Below are positions 3,295-54,899 of a stretch of 64,000 nt of DNA, piece by piece. Origin of the DNA: Methanohalophilus levihalophilus (lineage in GTDB: Archaea > Halobacteriota > Methanosarcinia > Methanosarcinales > Methanosarcinaceae); NCBI RefSeq assembly GCF_017874375.1, contig NZ_JAGGLK010000003.1, forward strand, positions 62,001 through 126,000. Reading direction: 5' to 3'. Within the stretch, counting starts at the first letter, position 1, and each line of letters starts with the position of its first letter. The notes under the pieces were generated by a model. That model was not told the DNA's origin and searched no databases. It was given only the letters and a program-made list of their open reading frames with translations. A program made the translations under genes and the position numbers.

Positions 3295-4770
3295 GTGGTT
3301 ATACCCACCGGATCAAAAGATTCAGAAGCTCCTGAAAAGACACGTTTTAAACCCGTTTATCTTATCCTTGGAAGCGGAAGCATAGGATTTGCAATTGCTA
3401 AAGAGCTCAGGGAAATGGGAAAAGATCTCATTATTGTTGATCGTGATTCCCAAAAGGTAGAGACCCTTCGTGAAGAAGCCTATGAAGCAACCGAAGGCGA
3501 TATTGCTGAACTAAAAACGCTGAAACAATTTGTTGGCAAGAAACTCAGTGGTGTCCTTGTAGTCAGTTCTGATAATGAAGCTAACAAAAAGGCAATAAAG
3601 AATGTCCGGGAACTTTTCGAGCCGGATACTTATTGTGTAGCTCGTTCATCAGATGTTATAAACAAGCAAGAAATGGAAGAGATGGGTGCAAATTTTGTAT
3701 TCATGCCTTCCAAGATTGTTGCAAAATCAATTTCAAGATCCCTTGGAAGAGCTGAATCAATGATGCTTGGAAACAAGCTTTCAGAGTGGTTCAAGAAACT
3801 TGCCAACAGGACTCTTGGAATTGTTATTCACGATAATCCGGATCCGGATGCGATGGCAAGTGCTCTTGCCCTGCAAAAAATTGCAGATCATCATGAAGTG
3901 AGATCCAAGATTTTATACCATGGTGAAATTGGTCATCAGGAAAACAAGGCATTTGTAAACCTGTTAGGTATTGATCTCAACAGGATGGAAGATCATGACG
4001 TCGAGAAATTCGATGAAATTGCCCTTGTGGATTGCGCTGTACCAGGTGCAAATAATATTCTTGAAGAAGGCCAGCATATTGGTCTGATATTCGATCATCA
4101 TCCCGTTAGTGAAGTTGAAGTTAATGCTGATTTTATTGATGTTCGTCCGAATGTGGGCGCCACGTCAACTATCATGACAAAGTACCTGCAGGAACTCAAT
4201 ATTGAAATAGATGATGTGCTTTCCACTGCTCTTCTTTATGGCATCAGGACTGACACCATGGATTTCAAGAGGAATACCGAATCAGCTGACTTATCGGCTG
4301 CGTCTTTCCTGTATCCTCTGGCAGATCACGAGGTGCTTGAGCAGCTTGAAAGACCATCAATGTCCATTGAAACCCTTGATGTTTTAGGGGAGGCAATTAA
4401 TAACCGCCAGGTTGTCGGAAGCTATCTCCTTTCAAATGTGGGAACTATAAGGGACAGGGATACCCTTCCCCAGGCAGCGGATTACCTGCTGAATCTGGAA
4501 GGTGTTTTTACGACCATTGTTTTTGGTGTCACAGAGGAGCGGATTTTTATATCCGGCAGAAGCAATGACATTCGCATAAACCTTGGTGAAATCCTGAAGA
4601 CGGCATTTGGTGAAGGTTCTGCAGGTGGTCACAATACAGCGGCAGCAGCCCAGATATCACTTGGTGTTTTCAGTGATATAAAAGACCGCCAGACTCTCCT
4701 GCGTCTTGTGGATGAAGCTGTGGTCAAAAAATTCCTGAATGCAGTTGGTGTAGAGGAAGTGGATGAGTAA
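3295..4770 (+). CDS. TrkA-N (RCK) / DHH-DHHA1 phosphoesterase fusion protein
   Basis: The N-terminus (about 20-145) is a Rossmann TrkA-N/RCK domain with YLILGSGSIGFAIA and the IVDRD ligand end. The middle (about 165-320) is a DHH phosphoesterase domain with DNPDPDAMASALAL, LVDCAVPG and IFDHHPVS as metal ligands. The C-terminus carries a DHHA1 domain with GRSNDIRINLG and GSAGGHNTAAAAQ. DHH enzymes cleave phosphodiesters such as short oligonucleotides or cyclic dinucleotides; the RCK part would sense a nucleotide. The substrate is unknown. The start is uncertain: GTG at 3295 is only 1 nt after GGGAGG, while ATA at 3301 would be 7 nt away. The next gene overlaps its 3' end. Confidence 0.85.
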   Translation: MVIPTGSKDSEAPEKTRFKPVYLILGSGSIGFAIAKELREMGKDLIIVDRDSQKVETLREEAYEATEGDIAELKTLKQFVGKKLSGVLVVSSDNEANKKAIKNVRELFEPDTYCVARSSDVINKQEMEEMGANFVFMPSKIVAKSISRSLGRAESMMLGNKLSEWFKKLANRTLGIVIHDNPDPDAMASALALQKIADHHEVRSKILYHGEIGHQENKAFVNLLGIDLNRMEDHDVEKFDEIALVDCAVPGANNILEEGQHIGLIFDHHPVSEVEVNADFIDVRPNVGATSTIMTKYLQELNIEIDDVLSTALLYGIRTDTMDFKRNTESADLSAASFLYPLADHEVLEQLERPSMSIETLDVLGEAINNRQVVGSYLLSNVGTIRDRDTLPQAADYLLNLEGVFTTIVFGVTEERIFISGRSNDIRINLGEILKTAFGEGSAGGHNTAAAAQISLGVFSDIKDRQTLLRLVDEAVVKKFLNAVGVEEVDE

Positions 4771-5428
4771 ATCCACGTCTTCGACTCTTTTTTCCCCGAT
4801 TTACAAAGAGCTGGAAATAGTTGAAAATCTCGATATTGATTCAATTGCCAGCCAAATCGAATCCATCGGGTTTAAATGCACACGTTGCGGGAAATGCTGC
4901 CGGGGAAGTTTCGGAGACAATTCAGTTCTCCTGAATTCCGAAGATCTGGATGTCCTTGAAAAGGATTCCTTGAAAGCTGATTTTGTAATCCCGATGATCG
5001 ATTTTTCTGATATGAATGGCTATCAACTAGTCGATGAAGATGGCTTTGTTCATACATTTGGATGGATGCTGAAAAGAAAGCAAAATATGGATTGTATTTT
5101 TCTTGAAAAGGATTACAGATGCCGAATATATGATTCCCGGCCGTATCTTTGCCGTACCTATCCTTTTTTCCTGAATGAAGGTACTCTGGAAGTATGTGAG
5201 TGCGAAGGTCTTGGAAAATCCATCTCCTCGGAAGCGGCAAAGGAACTGGCTACTCTTATTGTTCACAGGAAATCCGTGGAATTGAAGGATACAATCACAA
5301 TCTATGAGAAATTTCTTGAATCCGGTATTACTCTTGAAGAAAAAGATTCAGTTGCGTTATCTGAAATCTTCCGGATAATTGTACATGATACGAAAGGGAT
5401 TTCAGAGTTTATGAGTGACAGGTTATAG
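4763..5428 (+). CDS. YkgJ-family cysteine cluster protein (putative Fe-S protein)
   Basis: A 221-aa protein with the family cysteine pattern CTRCGKCCRGSFGD (about 39-52), CRIYDSRPYLCRTYPF (about 119-134) and VCEC (about 147). Proteins of this family are thought to bind a metal or Fe-S cluster; their reaction is not known. The ATG at 4763 overlaps the end of the DHH gene by 8 nt, so the two are translationally coupled. It ends in TAG at 5426-5428, one of only two TAG ends seen in the window; a TGA follows six codons later, so readthrough would add little. Confidence 0.85.
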   Translation: MSKSTSSTLFSPIYKELEIVENLDIDSIASQIESIGFKCTRCGKCCRGSFGDNSVLLNSEDLDVLEKDSLKADFVIPMIDFSDMNGYQLVDEDGFVHTFGWMLKRKQNMDCIFLEKDYRCRIYDSRPYLCRTYPFFLNEGTLEVCECEGLGKSISSEAAKELATLIVHRKSVELKDTITIYEKFLESGITLEEKDSVALSEIFRIIVHDTKGISEFMSDRL

Positions 5429-41927: not shown

Positions 41928-42302
41928 TTATGCAGTTTCAATTTTAAGCAGTCCCGTAGGGTAGTGGTCAATCCTTTCGGCCTTTGGAGCCGAAGACGGT
42001 GGTTCGAATCCGCCCGGGACTATCTTATCTTTATCGTCTGTTGAGAGCGATTTTTCTAGATTTGAGAGTCTTTTTTCGATGTTATTCAGAACTTGCTCTA
42101 GTTGGGTTTCAGGAGAATAGTTTACACTTTTTTGATCAATAATTACCAGAAATGCCTGTTTTCCTTCATGCTCAGTAGGGTGAATTTCTGCTTTCTCACC
42201 AACGAGATGCAGGTATTCTTTCGGCAAGCGTAGAGTTGGATACGCCCTTGTTTTGCTTGCACTTAATTTTGTAATTTTAGTTGTAAATGGTTGTTCTGAC
42301 AT
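41928..42302 (-). CDS. int(N): N-terminal part of the partitioned integrase
   Basis: Residues 1-93 come from the element and the frame then runs through the att core as IVPGGFEPPSSAPKA into host tRNA sequence, ending by chance at 41928. The same frame in the same phase enters the catalytic half at the other end, so joining the ends of the element rebuilds one integrase of 381 aa. Residues about 5-58 look like an AbrB/MazE-type beta domain (TLRLPKEYLHLVGEKAEIHP), followed by a coiled-coil stretch (QLEQVLNNIEKRLSNLEKSL). In the integrated state this fragment cannot recombine, but might still bind DNA and regulate. Confidence 0.8.
   Translation of the reverse strand: MSEQPFTTKITKLSASKTRAYPTLRLPKEYLHLVGEKAEIHPTEHEGKQAFLVIIDQKSVNYSPETQLEQVLNNIEKRLSNLEKSLSTDDKDKIVPGGFEPPSSAPKAERIDHYPTGLLKIETA
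41950..42022 (+). tRNA. tRNA-Gln (anticodon TTG), integration site
   Basis: Acceptor AGTCCCG pairs with CGGGACT; D arm with GGGTAGTGGTCAATCC; anticodon stem TTCGGC/GCCGAA around CTTTGGA, so the anticodon is TTG; T arm CGGTGG-TTCGAAT-CCGCCC region. Its 3' part from 41980 on is identical to the repeat at 54276-54319, so the integrated element restores a whole tRNA gene at this end. Confidence 0.93.
41980..42023 (+). repeat. attL (44-bp direct repeat)
   Basis: Begins with GCCTTTGGAGCC and ends with CCGGGACTAT. It covers the anticodon loop to the 3' end of tRNA-Gln plus one base, and is identical to 54276-54319. The first differing bases are 41979 and 42024. Confidence 0.93.
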
Positions 42303-46793: not shown

Positions 46794-48176
46794 TTAAGCT
46801 GTAAGAAGGTGATTCACAGCCGCTTCCATCAGTGTTTCATTGTCTGACTGTGCTTGCTTAATCTTTGCTTCAAGCTGGTCGCATAGTATCATAAGTTGAT
46901 CGACTTTAGCTACGATGCGTTTTTGTTCTTCTAGAGGTGGAAGTGGAATAATTGCATTTTTTATAATCCCTACATTGAGATTTGGTTGAGCTCCTCCAGC
47001 AGCTAAACTTCGTAACTCAGCATATTGTTTTGTTAAAACAAGCTTTACGTAGCTTTTGCTGATCTCAAGAGAATCGATAAAAACTAACGCAGCACATGCT
47101 TGATTAATAGTAGCTTCTATTTGAATTTCTGCAACCTGTCCTCGCGTTTTTCCTTGTCCATATAGTGCAATTATTAAGGTTCCAGGAGGATAAAGTCTTA
47201 AACGACATTCTTCTACTGCTTTTTGTGTTATATGTGTTTCAGCATTATCAACAAACTCAAGTGAAGTAGCCGAACTAGTTATCCATGGAATTGTGCCATT
47301 TTCATAATATTCTGCCTGAGTCTTCAAGGGGGTGCTTCCCGTTCCGACATCGCACAAATCTATTAGTCGAACCCATTTCCACTTATCAGAAATTTCATAA
47401 GGAGTTTTGGACTCGTCTATTTCAAGAGATTTGCTGGTTTTCTTAATCTTCCCTCCTTTCATCAACCTATCCTTTTCAGCCTTAATTCTCTCCAAGAGAA
47501 CTTCCGCTGGCTCATCACTAGCATCCTGCTCCACAAGCTTCCCTTGCACTGCAAGCTGCAATATTGTTTGTCTGAGCTTCTTTAAATTATCCAGATCTTC
47601 ATAGAGCAAATCGAAGTTCCCATAAACAAACTGCCAGTGCTCTGCGAATTCTTCTGGACTGGCGGCAGCGAGCATCTTGCTAAGTGCTGAATTGTTCAAA
47701 TGGTTGCGGTTTTCGTTCTTCTTTTGTTGGAGTGATTCAAGCTGATCACATACTGCCATAAGTTGATCAACTTTAGCTACGATGCGTTTTTGCTCTTCAA
47801 AGGGAGGAAGAGGAAAAGCGATATTTTTTACGATACCGGTGTTTAAATTTAATTGTGCACCACCAAAGGCTCTTTTTTTGAGCTCTCCTTGGAAATATAA
47901 AAAGAAATAATACAAATACTTAATAGAGATTTGATTTTTATTTAAATAAGGAAAAGCTAAATAGCCATCATGGATACAACCATTTATTCCTAATATAGTT
48001 GGAACCCCTATGGTTGCGCTATTAGAAAGAACAAAAGTTCCTTTTTCAAGGTAAACACTCTTTTTTGCCCCTTCTTTAGTTAGAAATTCATCGGTGTCTT
48101 TCAATACCCACCCATCAGCATATTTCCTTATATCCGAAATTTTAATCCAATGAAAAGGTGTTCTTCTTTGCTTCAA
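46794..48176 (-). pseudogene. Truncated type I restriction specificity subunit (hsdS remnant)
   Basis: The open frame (460 aa) shows two conserved regions PLPPFEEQKRIVAKVDQLM and PLPPLEEQKRIVAKVDQLM, each after a target-recognition domain. The first recognition domain lacks about its first 60 residues: the frame starts at TTG in TPFHWIKISDIRKYADG. This start overlaps the hsdR fragment, so a deletion has joined the 5' part of hsdR to the inside of hsdS, and hsdM is gone. The second domain (about 265-440) is whole. A protein may still be made, but no complete enzyme can form from this locus. Confidence 0.8.
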
Positions 48177-48438
48177 TTACAGCAATTGGAATATTTGGTT
48201 TGTAGTACAGGATATAATCAGCACGCTTATTTTTACCACGAGAGACTGTTTGGCCGCTAACAATTACTCTTCCATCGGTAAGTTGAACCTCTTCACGTAC
48301 TTGCGTTTGAAGATTCCATCCTGCTTTATCGATAGCTGGGGTAATGAATTTAGTACAAACGTCCCTTTCACTAAGATCATATTTGTTTATTTCATCCATA
48401 TTCCAGCTTTCCATTAATTGTGTCAGAATAATACTCAA
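48142..48438 (-). pseudogene. N-terminal fragment of type I restriction subunit R (hsdR remnant)
   Basis: Of 98 residues, about 80 match the HsdR N-terminal nuclease domain: SERDVCTKFITPAIDKAGWN, VIVSGQTVSRGKNKRADYIL and IAVIEAKK, the last with the catalytic Glu and Lys. It stops right after this motif; the motor domains are missing. The last codons overlap the start of the hsdS remnant, marking the deletion joint at about 48145-48180. Confidence 0.82.
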
Positions 48439-49211: not shown

Positions 49212-49811
49212 TCATGGGTTGAAAGTTTGAAGGGTTTCCACTAATTCGAAAACTAATGTAGAAGGGTTACTATTCCTGCTAATTATTTCCATACCATTCG
49301 AGTAATGCATATCATTAATTTGCTTTGAATTCTTTACTGCAATACCGATTTTTTGCTTTGTTTTCGTATAAAGTTCAGGATCCGTTTTCTTGTATCCTCC
49401 AAGATGGGTATCTAATTTACTTTTAAGAGCACCATGCTCAATTTGCTTCATGTAACATTCAAAATGTGAAAGTATCCAAAATTCAAAACAAGGATTTGAA
49501 AATATTAAGTTTATATCATTCAATTCTGACATTTTTTTCGCGTCTAAAAGTGATTGATCTGAATTTGCATCTCGATCAAATACACAGAAAATTAAATCGC
49601 CTTCTAGAAAGTCTCGGGTATGCTTTTTAAAATTTAGAATATGCTTTATAATGCCTACAGGATCTTTGTTATTGGAAGAATTTACTTTGATTTTCAATGA
49701 TCTCAATCTTAGATCTACCTTCAATTTATCGAAATAGTATTTTTCTGTTTTTGCTCCTTCGCAGAATATCCAAACTGTTTTTATGGATTTTTTCCCTTCA
49801 CCCCTGACCAT
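49212..49811 (-). CDS. RloB-like protein (AbiLii type)
   Basis: A 199-aa protein of the RloB family: VWIFCEGAKTEKYYFDKL at the N-terminus (a Toprim-like start with Glu), LIFCVFDRDAN in the middle (Asp pair) and SNPCFEFWILSHFE (about 102-115). RloB is seen as a Toprim-like nuclease partner of an RloA ATPase in phage-defence loci. It starts 22 nt after the ATPase stop, with GAGGGGG upstream. Confidence 0.8.
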   Translation of the reverse strand: MVRGEGKKSIKTVWIFCEGAKTEKYYFDKLKVDLRLRSLKIKVNSSNNKDPVGIIKHILNFKKHTRDFLEGDLIFCVFDRDANSDQSLLDAKKMSELNDINLIFSNPCFEFWILSHFECYMKQIEHGALKSKLDTHLGGYKKTDPELYTKTKQKIGIAVKNSKQINDMHYSNGMEIISRNSNPSTLVFELVETLQTFNP

Positions 49812-49833
49812 TTATGGTACCCCCTCAAAATAT

Positions 49834-51081
49834 TTAATCAAACAAAGTCTCATCAATAAGAGGGACTCCACCAAACCTTCCATTGAGATATGCTCTTTCA
49901 AAGTCTATCTCTTGCCGAATGTCATAATCCAAAAGTGAACTTAATTCTGTGGAACTATTTTGCTCTTTTGAGAAGAGATACACTTGATCCCTTCTGAAAA
50001 CCTCATTGTCAAGAAGCGTCGTATCATGTGTTGTAAAGATAACTTGTGCATCTTTGTTCTTTTTACTGTTAAACATCCTTACAAGTAGTCTTGTAATTTC
50101 AGGATGGAGACTTTGCTCAAGCTCGTCTATGAATGCAATGTTGCCTTTCTCAATTATATCAAACAATGGGCCCAAAATTAAAAAAGTTTTCTTTGTACCC
50201 ATGGATTCATCGTTCAAATCAAAATAAACAATTTTTCCATCCTCATTTTTGTGCATTGTCTGTACACTAAACACATCATCAGTACCATCTTTACTTTCAA
50301 ATGAAGAGTTCTCGTGTGAAAAATTAAAAGTAAATTCTTTTACTGGAATCTTTTTCTTCTTGATCCGAATATTTTCAATGCCCCCAAAATCGGCTTTTTT
50401 CAGCACATCGAGTATCTTCTTCTTAAAGTCACTATTTTCATAGGCTTTATTAATTGTATATCCTTCCCAACTCGGATTAATATTTACAAGATCAATATTT
50501 ACAATTATTTTTTTAGAGAAAAAATCGTATGCATCCTTTGTTTTATCATAGCCCAACTGCGTTGCTCGTGAAAGGTAGAGAGTATTATCAATAGTCTGCG
50601 ATTTCAACAAGTTCTGTTGTTCTTCATCAATTGGAAAAACGAATTTTTTCGTTTTTTCTCTTGTAAAGATTGGTTTTGGGTTTTGCTTTGAAATGTCATA
50701 CAAATACTCACTAACAATCTTCTTTGATGTGCATGAAAAACCATATTTGTAGGTTTTATTATTTTGGATGAATTTGATCTCAAAGTTACTAGGCTTTTTT
50801 TTGCATTCTTCGCTCAACTTAAATGGAGATACGGGAATATTTGAGTTTATATTAAAATTGTGAGAGTTTAGCACTAGGCCCTGCATGAAATACATTGCTT
50901 TTATAAAATTAGATTTTCCAGAAGAGTTCGCTCCATAAATGACAGCTGATTTGAGAAGTTTTTCTTTTTTATTTAATTCAATAAGATTCTGTGGTATTTT
51001 TTTACTTGAGCTTGAATCCATACTCAAGGTAACTTTTTCTTTGAATGAAAGAAAATTCTCAACAGAAAATTCTATTAACAT
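49834..51081 (-). CDS. RloA-like AAA ATPase (AbiLi type)
   Basis: A 415-aa SMC/OLD-like ATPase: FSVENFLSFKEKVTLSMD at the start, Walker A YGANSSGKSNFIKAM (about 49-63), and ABC-type Walker B IAFIDELEQSLHPEI (about 322-336) followed by QVIFTTHDTTLLD. With rloB it forms the two-gene arrangement of abortive-infection AbiL systems. The start is ATG at 51081. Confidence 0.83.
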   Translation of the reverse strand: MLIEFSVENFLSFKEKVTLSMDSSSSKKIPQNLIELNKKEKLLKSAVIYGANSSGKSNFIKAMYFMQGLVLNSHNFNINSNIPVSPFKLSEECKKKPSNFEIKFIQNNKTYKYGFSCTSKKIVSEYLYDISKQNPKPIFTREKTKKFVFPIDEEQQNLLKSQTIDNTLYLSRATQLGYDKTKDAYDFFSKKIIVNIDLVNINPSWEGYTINKAYENSDFKKKILDVLKKADFGGIENIRIKKKKIPVKEFTFNFSHENSSFESKDGTDDVFSVQTMHKNEDGKIVYFDLNDESMGTKKTFLILGPLFDIIEKGNIAFIDELEQSLHPEITRLLVRMFNSKKNKDAQVIFTTHDTTLLDNEVFRRDQVYLFSKEQNSSTELSSLLDYDIRQEIDFERAYLNGRFGGVPLIDETLFD

Positions 51082-51252: not shown

Positions 51253-51732
51253 TTAGGCTTTTTTGTCAAAACAAACTGTGTAAACCTCTATCCCTGCCCC
51301 TTTGCAAGCAGTAATTCTGCTATCTGAGATCTTTGCACAAACAATTCCAAGCCTTATTTTTTCCAAAGGAATTCCGAATTTTTCCGAATAAGGGATTTTG
51401 AATCTTTGAACTTGTCCGATAGCATTATCTCGCGCTTCAATTTCTATCTCAATCAAGAGTGTTTCGTCATTCTGAGTCTTGAAAACGACATCAATTCTTC
51501 CACCCTCAACTTCAACTTCAGTATCCTCAAAAGTCAACTTCTCTTCCAGAAATTCAGGAAAAGTAGAAATTATCCTTGAAATATCGCCTTCCGAAATACT
51601 CTCGGAAACAACGATATCTTTAATGTCTTCTGATTCAATTGCTTTGTTAAGGTGAGGTATAATATCATATCTCTTTTGATTCTTTACATGAGGATATACG
51701 GCTTTGAGTTTATTTTCCTCGTATTGTAACAA
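51253..51732 (-). CDS. Putative PD-(D/E)XK nuclease, NucS-like
   Basis: A 159-aa protein whose C-terminal half resembles the NucS-type nuclease fold: VEGGRIDVVFKTQ (catalytic Asp), LLIEIEIEARDNAIGQVQRFKIPYSE (Glu, then the GQ helix). The usual E-x-K appears as EIEIE, so the lysine is missing or shifted. The start would be TTG at 51732; no ATG is in frame, and upstream the frame reaches a TGA. It may be shortened at the N-terminus. Possible role: DNA cleavage in defence. Confidence 0.6.
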   Translation of the reverse strand: MLQYEENKLKAVYPHVKNQKRYDIIPHLNKAIESEDIKDIVVSESISEGDISRIISTFPEFLEEKLTFEDTEVEVEGGRIDVVFKTQNDETLLIEIEIEARDNAIGQVQRFKIPYSEKFGIPLEKIRLGIVCAKISDSRITACKGAGIEVYTVCFDKKA

Positions 51733-51863
51733 GATTCCAACCTTTCCAAGTTTGTTCTTGTTACGTGAAATTGGAAGAGGGCCATTTCCTTGGCTTTTTC
51801 AAATTGTTTATAGAATTCGTGCCTTTCAATAGGGATTATTCCATCTACCACATCAATGACCAT
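51684..51863 (-). pseudogene. Possible coding remnant upstream of the NucS-like gene
   Basis: In another minus-strand frame, ATG 51863 begins a 59-codon open frame (VIDVVDGIIPIERHEFYKQF, EKAKEMALFQFHVTRTNLER) that overlaps the start of the nuclease gene. The residues look protein-like and the frame continues upstream without stops to 51920, where a TGA lies. It may be the end of a decayed gene or a short real one. I do not recognise it. Confidence 0.3.
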
Positions 51864-52198
51864 AATCGATTTTGTGAAATGCTTGTTACTGAAGATCGAA
51901 TTCTCAGCATCTTTAAATTCTCAGTAGAAACATGTTTTCATGTAATTAAAGACGCATTTTTATAGATTTTTCATAACTAGGTTTGCAATTTTAATAGACT
52001 ATACCCCATCATGGCTGAGTATTTTCACATGAGATGGATGCCAATACAGTACCATCAAAAGAGTTTATGGAATCTTAATTTTTCTCACCCATTTCTAAAT
52101 ATAATATGCAATTCAACCTGTAAATCGGACACTAAGTTTAAATATTTAGAAATGGATTAAAGAGCGACATTTACATTAATTTAATGAAGGGGATGGAA
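51864..52198. other. 335-bp stretch without a clear gene
   Basis: AT-rich. Apart from the uncertain remnant frame up to 51920 and promoter-like A/T runs before the lipoprotein gene (about 52135-52150), I see nothing in it. A plus-strand frame at 51765-51965 is judged a shadow. Confidence 0.4.
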
Positions 52199-52867
52199 AT
52201 GAGTACAAAGTATGTATTAGTAACTTTGATGTTATTGATCGTGACTATAGCGGCACTTGGATGTACAGAGAGCAAAGATACAATAGTAGGAACTTGGTAT
52301 TATTCAGATGAAAATGCTCCAGAATTAAACACTTTCTTATCATTCTATGAAGATGGTATGGTTGTCTATAGTGATGAATCCGGAATGCCATATTCAGCTT
52401 CAGCCTACAGATCATCTGATTCTGAAGAGAATACAATAATTAAATATCACGGATCTGATATTTCTAGACTCACATATGAATTTACTAATGATGGTCTTGA
52501 ACTTGAATCAATGTTGCTTGAGAAAGTAGAGACTAAGCCAGTGCTAAATTCTGAAAAAATAATCGGGGATTGGACAATCTCATTTCTTACAGAAGATGAA
52601 TATGACATCGACTTTTACCTGACTTTCTATGACAATGGCATATAGGTAATCAAAGCATTTGATGAATCTATATACAATTATGGCACTTTTAAGTATGAAT
52701 TATCAGATAACAATTTAAAGATAATCTCTGATGCTGGATACTATTCCGATGGTGAAAGACAATTAAGTGAAGATGATTTTGAAATAATTGAACTAACTGA
52801 AGATAAAATAACTTTAAGCATAGATGGAGAGGGGGTACTGCTTGAAAGATACGCTTCAAATAGTTGA
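52199..52867 (+). CDS. Two-repeat lipoprotein with in-frame UAG (candidate pyrrolysine codon)
   Basis: Signal and lipobox VTIAALGCTES (Cys about 22). The frame has TAG at 52643-52645 (codon 149) and then runs open for 73 more codons to TGA at 52865-52867. The two halves are repeats: IVGTWYYSDEN...FLSFYEDGMVVYS against IIGDWTISFLTED...LTFYDNGI-UAG-VIKAF, so the UAG lies inside a conserved strand of repeat 2. Without it the second repeat is cut in the middle. A terminator-like hairpin starts at the TGA. Either UAG is read as pyrrolysine, as in Methanosarcinaceae, or this is a nonsense mutation. Start ATG 52199; ATG 52184 and 52193 are in frame. Confidence 0.65.
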
Positions 52868-52884
52868 GCTACTAAGGCTCAACT
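52862..52884 (+). terminator. Hairpin at the end of the long lipoprotein frame
   Basis: AGTTGAGC (52862-52869) pairs with GCTCAACT (52877-52884) over a 7-nt loop, followed by AATTTT. It overlaps the TGA of the UAG-readthrough frame and not the earlier TAG. Confidence 0.55.
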
Positions 52885-53039
52885 AATTTTAAAGAATATG
52901 TAGTAGTGAATTAATGAGTAAATCTGCTCAACAAGAATTGTACATTTGAAGCGCGTTACAACTTTTGCTTTTGTCAAATGTTAAAGGCTACCATACAAAC
53001 AGTGAAGTAATGGTTTACACCAAGTACTTCACAATTTTT

Positions 53040-53452: not shown

Positions 53453-54319
53453 TTAATCTCCAAAAGCGGAATCAATATATGGCACCACTTTACCATAATT
53501 GAGAATGCAGTTATTGAGCTTGTCTAAATAGTTAGTCATCAAAACTGAACCATTAGAATGTCCAACCATGTATTTTATGAAAGATTCTTGAATTCCAGCT
53601 TTAACACACTTGTCTATGAAAAAGTTGCGACCATATTTCAATCCCAGTCCACGCCTTCTGAAGTAAATTCGTGATGCTTCAATGTCAATATACATTTTGT
53701 AGAGTTGCCTGGCAAAAGCTTCAGGCATGAATGCTTTAAACGCTTTTTTCTGACCACGTTCCCAATCGATGTCATAATACGCTATGCCATTTTCATAATG
53801 CATCTTCTTAGGATCAAACTCGGTAAGAACTTTAACCGCTTCTACAATGCGTATTCCGCTGTAATAGACAAGTTGTATCAGGTATTGCATCTCCTCATCT
53901 GTAGTTCTCTGAAAAACATTACAAACGAGTTCATCACTGGGAACATAAGTATCAGTGCCACATTTTCTGATCTTTAATGTATTTTTTAACTCTGCTGCAA
54001 AGTAGGCTGATATCATACGCTTTTCAACGTAATAATTGATCAAGTTGCGGACTGCTTTGGCATACCAATTCCAACCTTTATCAACACCCATTGAAACATC
54101 GAGTAGTGAATCAATATCCGATATCTCTGTACCTCTCAAATGCTGATCTAAGTACTTGACATAGCACTTTGCGGTACCTTCACTCACCCTCCCATGAATC
54201 CATCGTGTAAACTTTTCTCTCTCAAAAGTGTAATTTAGTACATTTAAAGTGGCTTCTGCACTTGAAAATGCTCTTGCCTTTGGAGCCGAAGACGGTGGTT
54301 CGAATCCGCCCGGGACTAT
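53453..54319 (-). CDS. int(C): catalytic part of the partitioned tyrosine integrase
   Basis: From the att core inward this frame encodes 288 residues: a SAM-like core-binding part (about FTRWIHGRVSEGTAKCYVKY) and the tyrosine recombinase domain with YYSGIRIVEAVKVL (first Arg), KYGRNFFIDKC (second Arg box), VGHSNGSVLMTNYLDK (His and the nucleophile Tyr). There is no ATG between the core and the conserved region; the open frame reaches ATG 54391 only by reading 24 codons into host DNA. Joined to int(N) the protein has 381 aa. In the integrated state it lacks its own start, which is the normal SSV-type outcome. Confidence 0.85.
   Translation of the reverse strand: MVPGGFEPPSSAPKARAFSSAEATLNVLNYTFEREKFTRWIHGRVSEGTAKCYVKYLDQHLRGTEISDIDSLLDVSMGVDKGWNWYAKAVRNLINYYVEKRMISAYFAAELKNTLKIRKCGTDTYVPSDELVCNVFQRTTDEEMQYLIQLVYYSGIRIVEAVKVLTEFDPKKMHYENGIAYYDIDWERGQKKAFKAFMPEAFARQLYKMYIDIEASRIYFRRRGLGLKYGRNFFIDKCVKAGIQESFIKYMVGHSNGSVLMTNYLDKLNNCILNYGKVVPYIDSAFGD
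54276..54319 (+). repeat. attR (44-bp direct repeat)
   Basis: Identical to 41980-42023. To its right the host sequence resumes with TTGCTTTTTTGC, a T-rich run that was probably the original tRNA-Gln terminator. Confidence 0.93.
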
Positions 54320-54383
54320 TTGCTTTTTTGCACATTTCTGCCAATGATATTTTAGCAAGAGATTCTTTTTTAAGACAAGAATT

Positions 54384-54899
54384 TCACTCACTGCTATCGC
54401 TTACACTACAGCTATCATGTGGTGGATATTTCGTAGCCATAATCCTGATTGCGCCTAATACCATCAACAAGACGGACAGGCTCAGGATGAACTCATATTC
54501 TATCTTCTGGGCGTAAATACCAGCCGCAATCTCACGCATTACGATCAAAATTGTAGCATCGGTTAGGAATGTGAGTCTGATTCTTTCATGTTCGCGGTAA
54601 TCAACAAAGGTCTTTATCAAATCAATAAGAACAAAGACCGTCAGGACGCTAAAGACCACCGTGCTGAAATTAATCAGGGCTATACTGCTGTCGATTGCTC
54701 CTATAATAATTATGGCTGTGCTGGCTAAAATCTTCAGGACGGCTAAAAGCAGGGCTACCAACAATATGTAAAGAACAACTATGGTGACATAGTCTATGAC
54801 AGAATTAAATACTTTTGTATGATTCATTTTATCACACACCGCTTCAACGAACTCCCCATATTGCGGCTGTTTTCTTAGAGAATTATTTAATTTCTCCAA
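54384..54899 (-). CDS. PsiE-like membrane protein
   Basis: A 171-aa protein with four membrane helices (about 32-55, 62-85, 88-108, 140-160), matching the phosphate-starvation-inducible PsiE pattern with KTFVDYREHERIRLTFLTDA and a helix start TILIVMREI. Its function is not known. Its stop lies 65 bp from attR, so it is the first host gene to the right of the element. Confidence 0.75.
   Translation of the reverse strand: MEKLNNSLRKQPQYGEFVEAVCDKMNHTKVFNSVIDYVTIVVLYILLVALLLAVLKILASTAIIIIGAIDSSIALINFSTVVFSVLTVFVLIDLIKTFVDYREHERIRLTFLTDATILIVMREIAAGIYAQKIEYEFILSLSVLLMVLGAIRIMATKYPPHDSCSVSDSSE

Follow-up and report, generated by a model that had tools for sequence, protein, structure and literature searches.

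An in-frame UAG, probably read as pyrrolysine, in a lipocalin-like lipoprotein gene of Methanohalophilus levihalophilus

Does the in-frame UAG of a lipoprotein gene in Methanohalophilus levihalophilus end the protein, or is it read as pyrrolysine, the 22nd amino acid? The gene lies in a 64,000-nt stretch of the forward strand of contig NZ_JAGGLK010000003.1, hereafter the window, and coordinates without a prefix are positions in it. The initial annotation proposed pyrrolysine and a new class of carrier. Here, the reading frame, the mobile element around it, the pyrrolysine machinery of the host and the use of TAG across the genome and its relatives are examined together.

Results

The frame remains open behind the TAG

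The lipoprotein gene and its parts are as follows.

52199..52867, + strand: lipoprotein gene; its product has 222 residues when UAG is decoded and 148 when translation ends there
52643..52645, + strand: in-frame TAG, codon 149, probable pyrrolysine (sequence and genome-wide context)
52199..52264, + strand: signal peptide and lipobox (..AALGC, Cys22; from translation and the known lipobox pattern)
52277..52528, + strand: first repeat, residues 27-110 (self-alignment)
52553..52852, + strand: second repeat, Lipocalin_4-like, residues 119-218 (Pfam 121-206), spanning the TAG (self-alignment, Pfam)
52137..52144, + strand: candidate archaeal promoter, TATA-box-like TTTAAATA (by inspection)
52189..52192, + strand: candidate ribosome-binding GGGG, 6 nt 5' of ATG 52199 (by inspection)
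52861..52885, + strand: 10-bp stem-loop over the final TGA, without a T-run behind it (folding, sequence)

From ATG 52199 to TGA 52865-52867 the sole interruption of the frame is TAG 52643-52645. The 73 sense codons initially counted behind it are indeed uninterrupted, with no in-frame stop, whereas the two alternative frames contain 9 and 15. When the bases of this stretch were shuffled, 0.5% of trials were free of TAA and TGA. Codon usage is alike on the two sides of the TAG (score 0.086 before, 0.100 after).

Self-alignment identified the second half of the lipoprotein as a divergent copy of the first: residues 23-117 against 118-222 scored 69, whereas 2000 shuffles averaged 31.7 and never exceeded 62. 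The post-TAG part alone was not significant (p 0.27); thus the earlier proposal that a second repeat copy is completed past the TAG holds for the second half as a whole and not for its post-TAG part by itself. Pfam Lipocalin_4 (PF13648) matched residues 121-206 over profile positions 1-89 of 89, passing narrowly at 23.2 bits against a cut-off of 22.4, and did so only with the TAG read through. The 148-residue front gave no Pfam match, and the 73-residue back alone gave a partial match below the cut-off. Single-sequence structure prediction gave an unusable model (pLDDT 42). No true relative of the lipoprotein was found in a set of 60 relatives, in 112 genomes of the family, in contigs from GTDB and from viruses, in plasmids or in the PDB; weak matches were rejected because they covered the signal peptide or short pieces only, and Lipocalin_4 members in related genomes, whose matches were weak and mostly partial, were not taken as orthologues. 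The protein resembles Lipocalin_4 proteins in a full-length profile match over its second half, and differs from them in a score barely above the cut-off and in a duplicated domain.

The hairpin described earlier as terminator-like is real insofar as a 10-bp stem overlaps the later TGA (z -3.3); the T-run of a terminator was not found 3' of it. A PYLIS-like hairpin behind the UAG was considered and rejected, as the next 100 nt fold no better than shuffled sequence (z 0.0 to 0.14).

The gene lies on an integrative element

A 53-nt repeat common to a tRNA-Gln gene and the 5' end of an integrase ORF bounds a 12.3-kb integrative element that contains the lipoprotein gene.

41980..42032: left-hand copy of the att-like direct repeat, within the tRNA-Gln gene 41950-42022 and extending slightly past it
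54276..54328: right-hand copy of the att-like direct repeat (92% identity across 53 nt), 5' end of the integrase ORF
53453..54391, - strand: archaeal phage-type integrase of the element (PF16795; Pfam)

These repeats and the integrase bear out the suggestion of a lipoprotein on a mobile element, with a single TAG in an otherwise intact frame. Further cargo comprises a DUF927/Cch1-like helicase, an AbiL-like pair and type I restriction fragments. The AbiLi/AbiLii-like pair (an AAA ATPase and a RloB-like protein; 49212-51081, - strand) is a probable anti-virus defence system. At 46794-48438 (- strand) a type I restriction specificity gene stands beside a 98-residue N-terminal HsdR fragment, an arrangement that looks like a deletion remnant. 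In a PD-(D/E)XK/NucS-like nuclease gene (51253-51866, - strand) a frameshift splits MVIDVVDGII..KEMA from LPISRNKN...

The host carries a complete pyl gene set

The genome (2.1 Mb in 5 contigs) holds tRNA-Pyl (anticodon CTA), pylS, pylB, pylC and pylD in a row, adjoined by mtbA. As pylTSBCD is thus complete, the main objection to pyrrolysine decoding, a genome with no pyl genes, falls away. PylS, PylB, PylC and PylD each exceeded the curated NCBIfam cut-off; an apparent absence of pylC, suggested by a Pfam N-terminal model without a match, was dropped as a limit of that model once the NCBIfam model found PylC. Two of the three MtmB-family genes have one internal TAG each, and there is one full-length aRF1.

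In this genome pylB itself ends in TAG, directly 5' of the pylC ATG (L013:3243-3245, - strand). The same arrangement occurs in six other pylS+ relatives (L001-L004, L006-L008), most of which belong to the genus that otherwise avoids TAG, and a pylB TAG at this position is known from M. mazei, M. acetivorans and M. burtonii (PMC2933860). In all five same-genus loci examined, the extension behind the pylB TAG runs for 39 codons; it overlaps pylC, and the overlap may explain its length. In this genome the extension is not coding-like, so that UAG is probably not purely a sense codon here. That this TAG is kept where TAG has otherwise been emptied could reflect feedback on pyrrolysine supply.

TAG is rare as a stop codon

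We counted stop codons of genes with coding-like composition in a 440-kb sample of genome stretches. TAG ended 4 of 352 genes (1.1%), compared with 8 of 57 (14%) in G015, a relative without pylS, and its share of stop trinucleotides was 17-20% in both genomes. The avoidance of TAG expected of a pyrrolysine-decoding methanogen is thus observed. Low amber use has been noted for pyl+ archaea (PMC3941956). Elsewhere, TAG-ended genes numbered 1 of 62 in a sampled congener, 0 of 73 in a second pylS+ family member and 8 of 57 in a third. When the cut was altered slightly, the TAG-ended genes of M. levihalophilus were four: pylB, window gene 4763-5428, and the genes of a SAM methyltransferase and of a TSP3-repeat protein. 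In the last two the frame runs on past the TAG. Gene 4763-5428 is the one other TAG-ended gene noticed at the outset, with a TGA six codons on.

Other genes are crossed by TAG

A strict codon-score screen for frames joined across a stop gave one TAG case only, whose sequence is that of a known methylamine methyltransferase; AT-rich accessory genes have low scores and so were missed. We therefore used a looser screen with domain checks on the TAG-joined frames and discarded chance frames by eye. The looser screen joined 23 frames across TAA, 13 across TGA and 13 across TAG; counts for TAA and TGA being no lower than for TAG, the raw count is no evidence, and only the domain-spanning cases are.

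L024:18903-19565, - strand: SAM methyltransferase, one TAG (Pfam across the TAG)
L024:16632-17768, - strand: candidate case in a FemAB-like transferase, one TAG (looser screen and domain check)
L029:777-1973, + strand: TSP3-repeat membrane protein, one TAG (Pfam across the TAG)
L025:11510-12784, - strand: candidate GH114-domain lipoprotein, one TAG (looser screen and domain check)
L018:14615-15490, + strand: candidate membrane protein, one TAG (looser screen)
L036:1883-2974, + strand: DinB-family polymerase of congener G003, TAG at codon 236 (orthologue comparison)

In the SAM methyltransferase, Methyltransf_25 matches residues 44-138 (profile 1-97 of 97) and spans the TAG at residue 120. A TSP3 repeat at 154-176 spans the TAG at residue 169 of the L029 protein, the Acetyltransf_6 match of the FemAB-like transferase begins at 185, before its TAG at residue 198, and the GH114 domain of the candidate second lipoprotein lies behind the TAG. 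The FemAB-like transferase and SAM methyltransferase genes, each with a single TAG, are about 1 kb apart. The strongest single test is the DinB gene of G003: the TAG stands where four orthologues from congeners, 90-93% identical, have CAG, and an IMS_C match shows the C-terminal domain past it to be intact. The M. levihalophilus copy, at 65% identity, also has CAG at this position. In this conserved gene a sense codon has turned into TAG, as general decoding would allow.

Discussion

Collectively, these data indicate that UAG is probably a near-general sense codon, for pyrrolysine, in this lineage. We have good confidence that the element carries a lipocalin-like lipoprotein whose host decodes UAG as pyrrolysine almost everywhere, and that the protein is made full length, mostly or in part, with pyrrolysine at residue 149. 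The gene would encode a two-domain lipocalin-like surface lipoprotein on an integrative element of a methylotrophic methanogen. PylB, PylC and PylD would synthesize pyrrolysine, PylS would charge tRNA-Pyl(CUA), and ordinary elongation would place the residue at UAG without a dedicated downstream signal. A PYLIS element would be an enhancer at most. It is not essential, and Methanosarcina suppresses the UAG of a reporter gene (PMC2933860). As TAG has almost lost its role as a stop in this lineage, a sense codon that mutated to TAG would be tolerated as a lysine-like or pyrrolysine substitution.

We infer that pyrrolysine is inserted at codon 149, with an efficiency sufficient for some or most of the protein to be full length, and that it serves no special function there. 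Most likely it is a tolerated substitution and not a selected cofactor. Position 149 lies in a domain without known catalysis, which makes a special role for pyrrolysine unlikely, and since several unrelated genes of the genome have an in-frame TAG, the lipoprotein would be one more example of a general habit. We accordingly give very little credence to selection for Pyl149, whether because its reactive imine ring, on a surface lipocalin-like domain, serves to bind or sense extracellular amines, methylamines or others, or because the UAG switches between one- and two-domain forms with pyrrolysine supply.

The main rival, plausible in itself and on balance unlikely, is that the TAG arose lately by nonsense mutation, in a gene that the decaying element can do without, leaving a 148-residue main product and a young pseudogene tail. 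Its best argument is the decay of neighbouring element genes, seen in the frameshift of nuclease 51253-51866 and the 98-residue HsdR piece, and it gains from the lack of any homologue, in the searches above, that shows constraint behind the TAG. Against this, the lipoprotein gene has a single break, of the one kind that the genome can read, and its frame and codon usage are otherwise intact. Moreover, a cell with tRNA-Pyl would suppress even a fresh TAG. The host probably does so here even if the mutation is young, so that this explanation merges with pyrrolysine insertion unless suppression is weak. Still less probable is an error of sequencing or assembly at a codon that is truly a sense codon. 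There is one assembly only, and the neighbouring frameshift could likewise be an error; nonetheless, several genes have one in-frame TAG each with Pfam domains across it, and were all of these errors, they would need to be of the same codon type.

Partial reading of the UAG, with the ratio of one- to two-domain lipoprotein set by pyrrolysine supply, is a quantitative variant that overlaps with the favoured explanation; we regard it as possible, with the balance tilting against it. Suppression of a reporter UAG in M. acetivorans reaches 20-30% (PMC2933860), aRF1 is present as one full-length copy, and the TAG has no PYLIS-like structure behind it (z about 0), all of which fit such dual output. 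Conversely, TAG stops are at 1.1% here versus 14% in the sample of pylS+ G011, which suggests more efficient decoding, and nothing indicates that the short form is selected for.

The lipoprotein can be set beside known pyrrolysine carriers. In the methylamine methyltransferases MtmB, MtbB and MttB, pyrrolysine is thought to be catalytic. As is probable for the lipoprotein, a single in-frame UAG is read through to a full domain, and such genes are found in this genome too; their UAG is conserved, whereas that of the lipoprotein falls in a lipocalin-like domain without known catalysis. The proposal of a new class of carrier was not supported. The genome has other TAG-containing genes outside methylamine metabolism, including the candidate second lipoprotein, DinB of the congener adds another, and earlier publications describe non-methylamine carriers of in-frame UAG, namely Thg1 and transposases (PMC2933860, PMC8211752). 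The Thg1 protein of Methanosarcina acetivorans and the transposases share with the lipoprotein a pyl+ host of the Methanosarcinales, a non-methylamine function, one UAG and no evident need for pyrrolysine. Thg1 differs in having homologues with a sense codon and in that its pyrrolysine has been observed physically, whereas the lipoprotein is known from sequence and no homologue was found. A further parallel lies in archaea that read all TAG as pyrrolysine, a 'Pyl code' that Kivenson et al. reportedly described in Science in 2025. TAG is likewise nearly absent as a stop in M. levihalophilus and found inside unrelated genes; a difference is that pylB is still TAG-ended here.

Any gene caller that takes TAG for a stop will truncate such genes in this genus. 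With about six candidates in 440 kb, our rough guess is that perhaps a few dozen genes per genome are wrongly annotated. The change from CAG to TAG in DinB of one species shows that, within the genus, a formerly sense position of a conserved gene can become TAG, and offers a clean system for the cost of pyrrolysine to a protein in which the residue has no job. A UAG-containing gene on a mobile element would be fully expressed only in hosts that read UAG.
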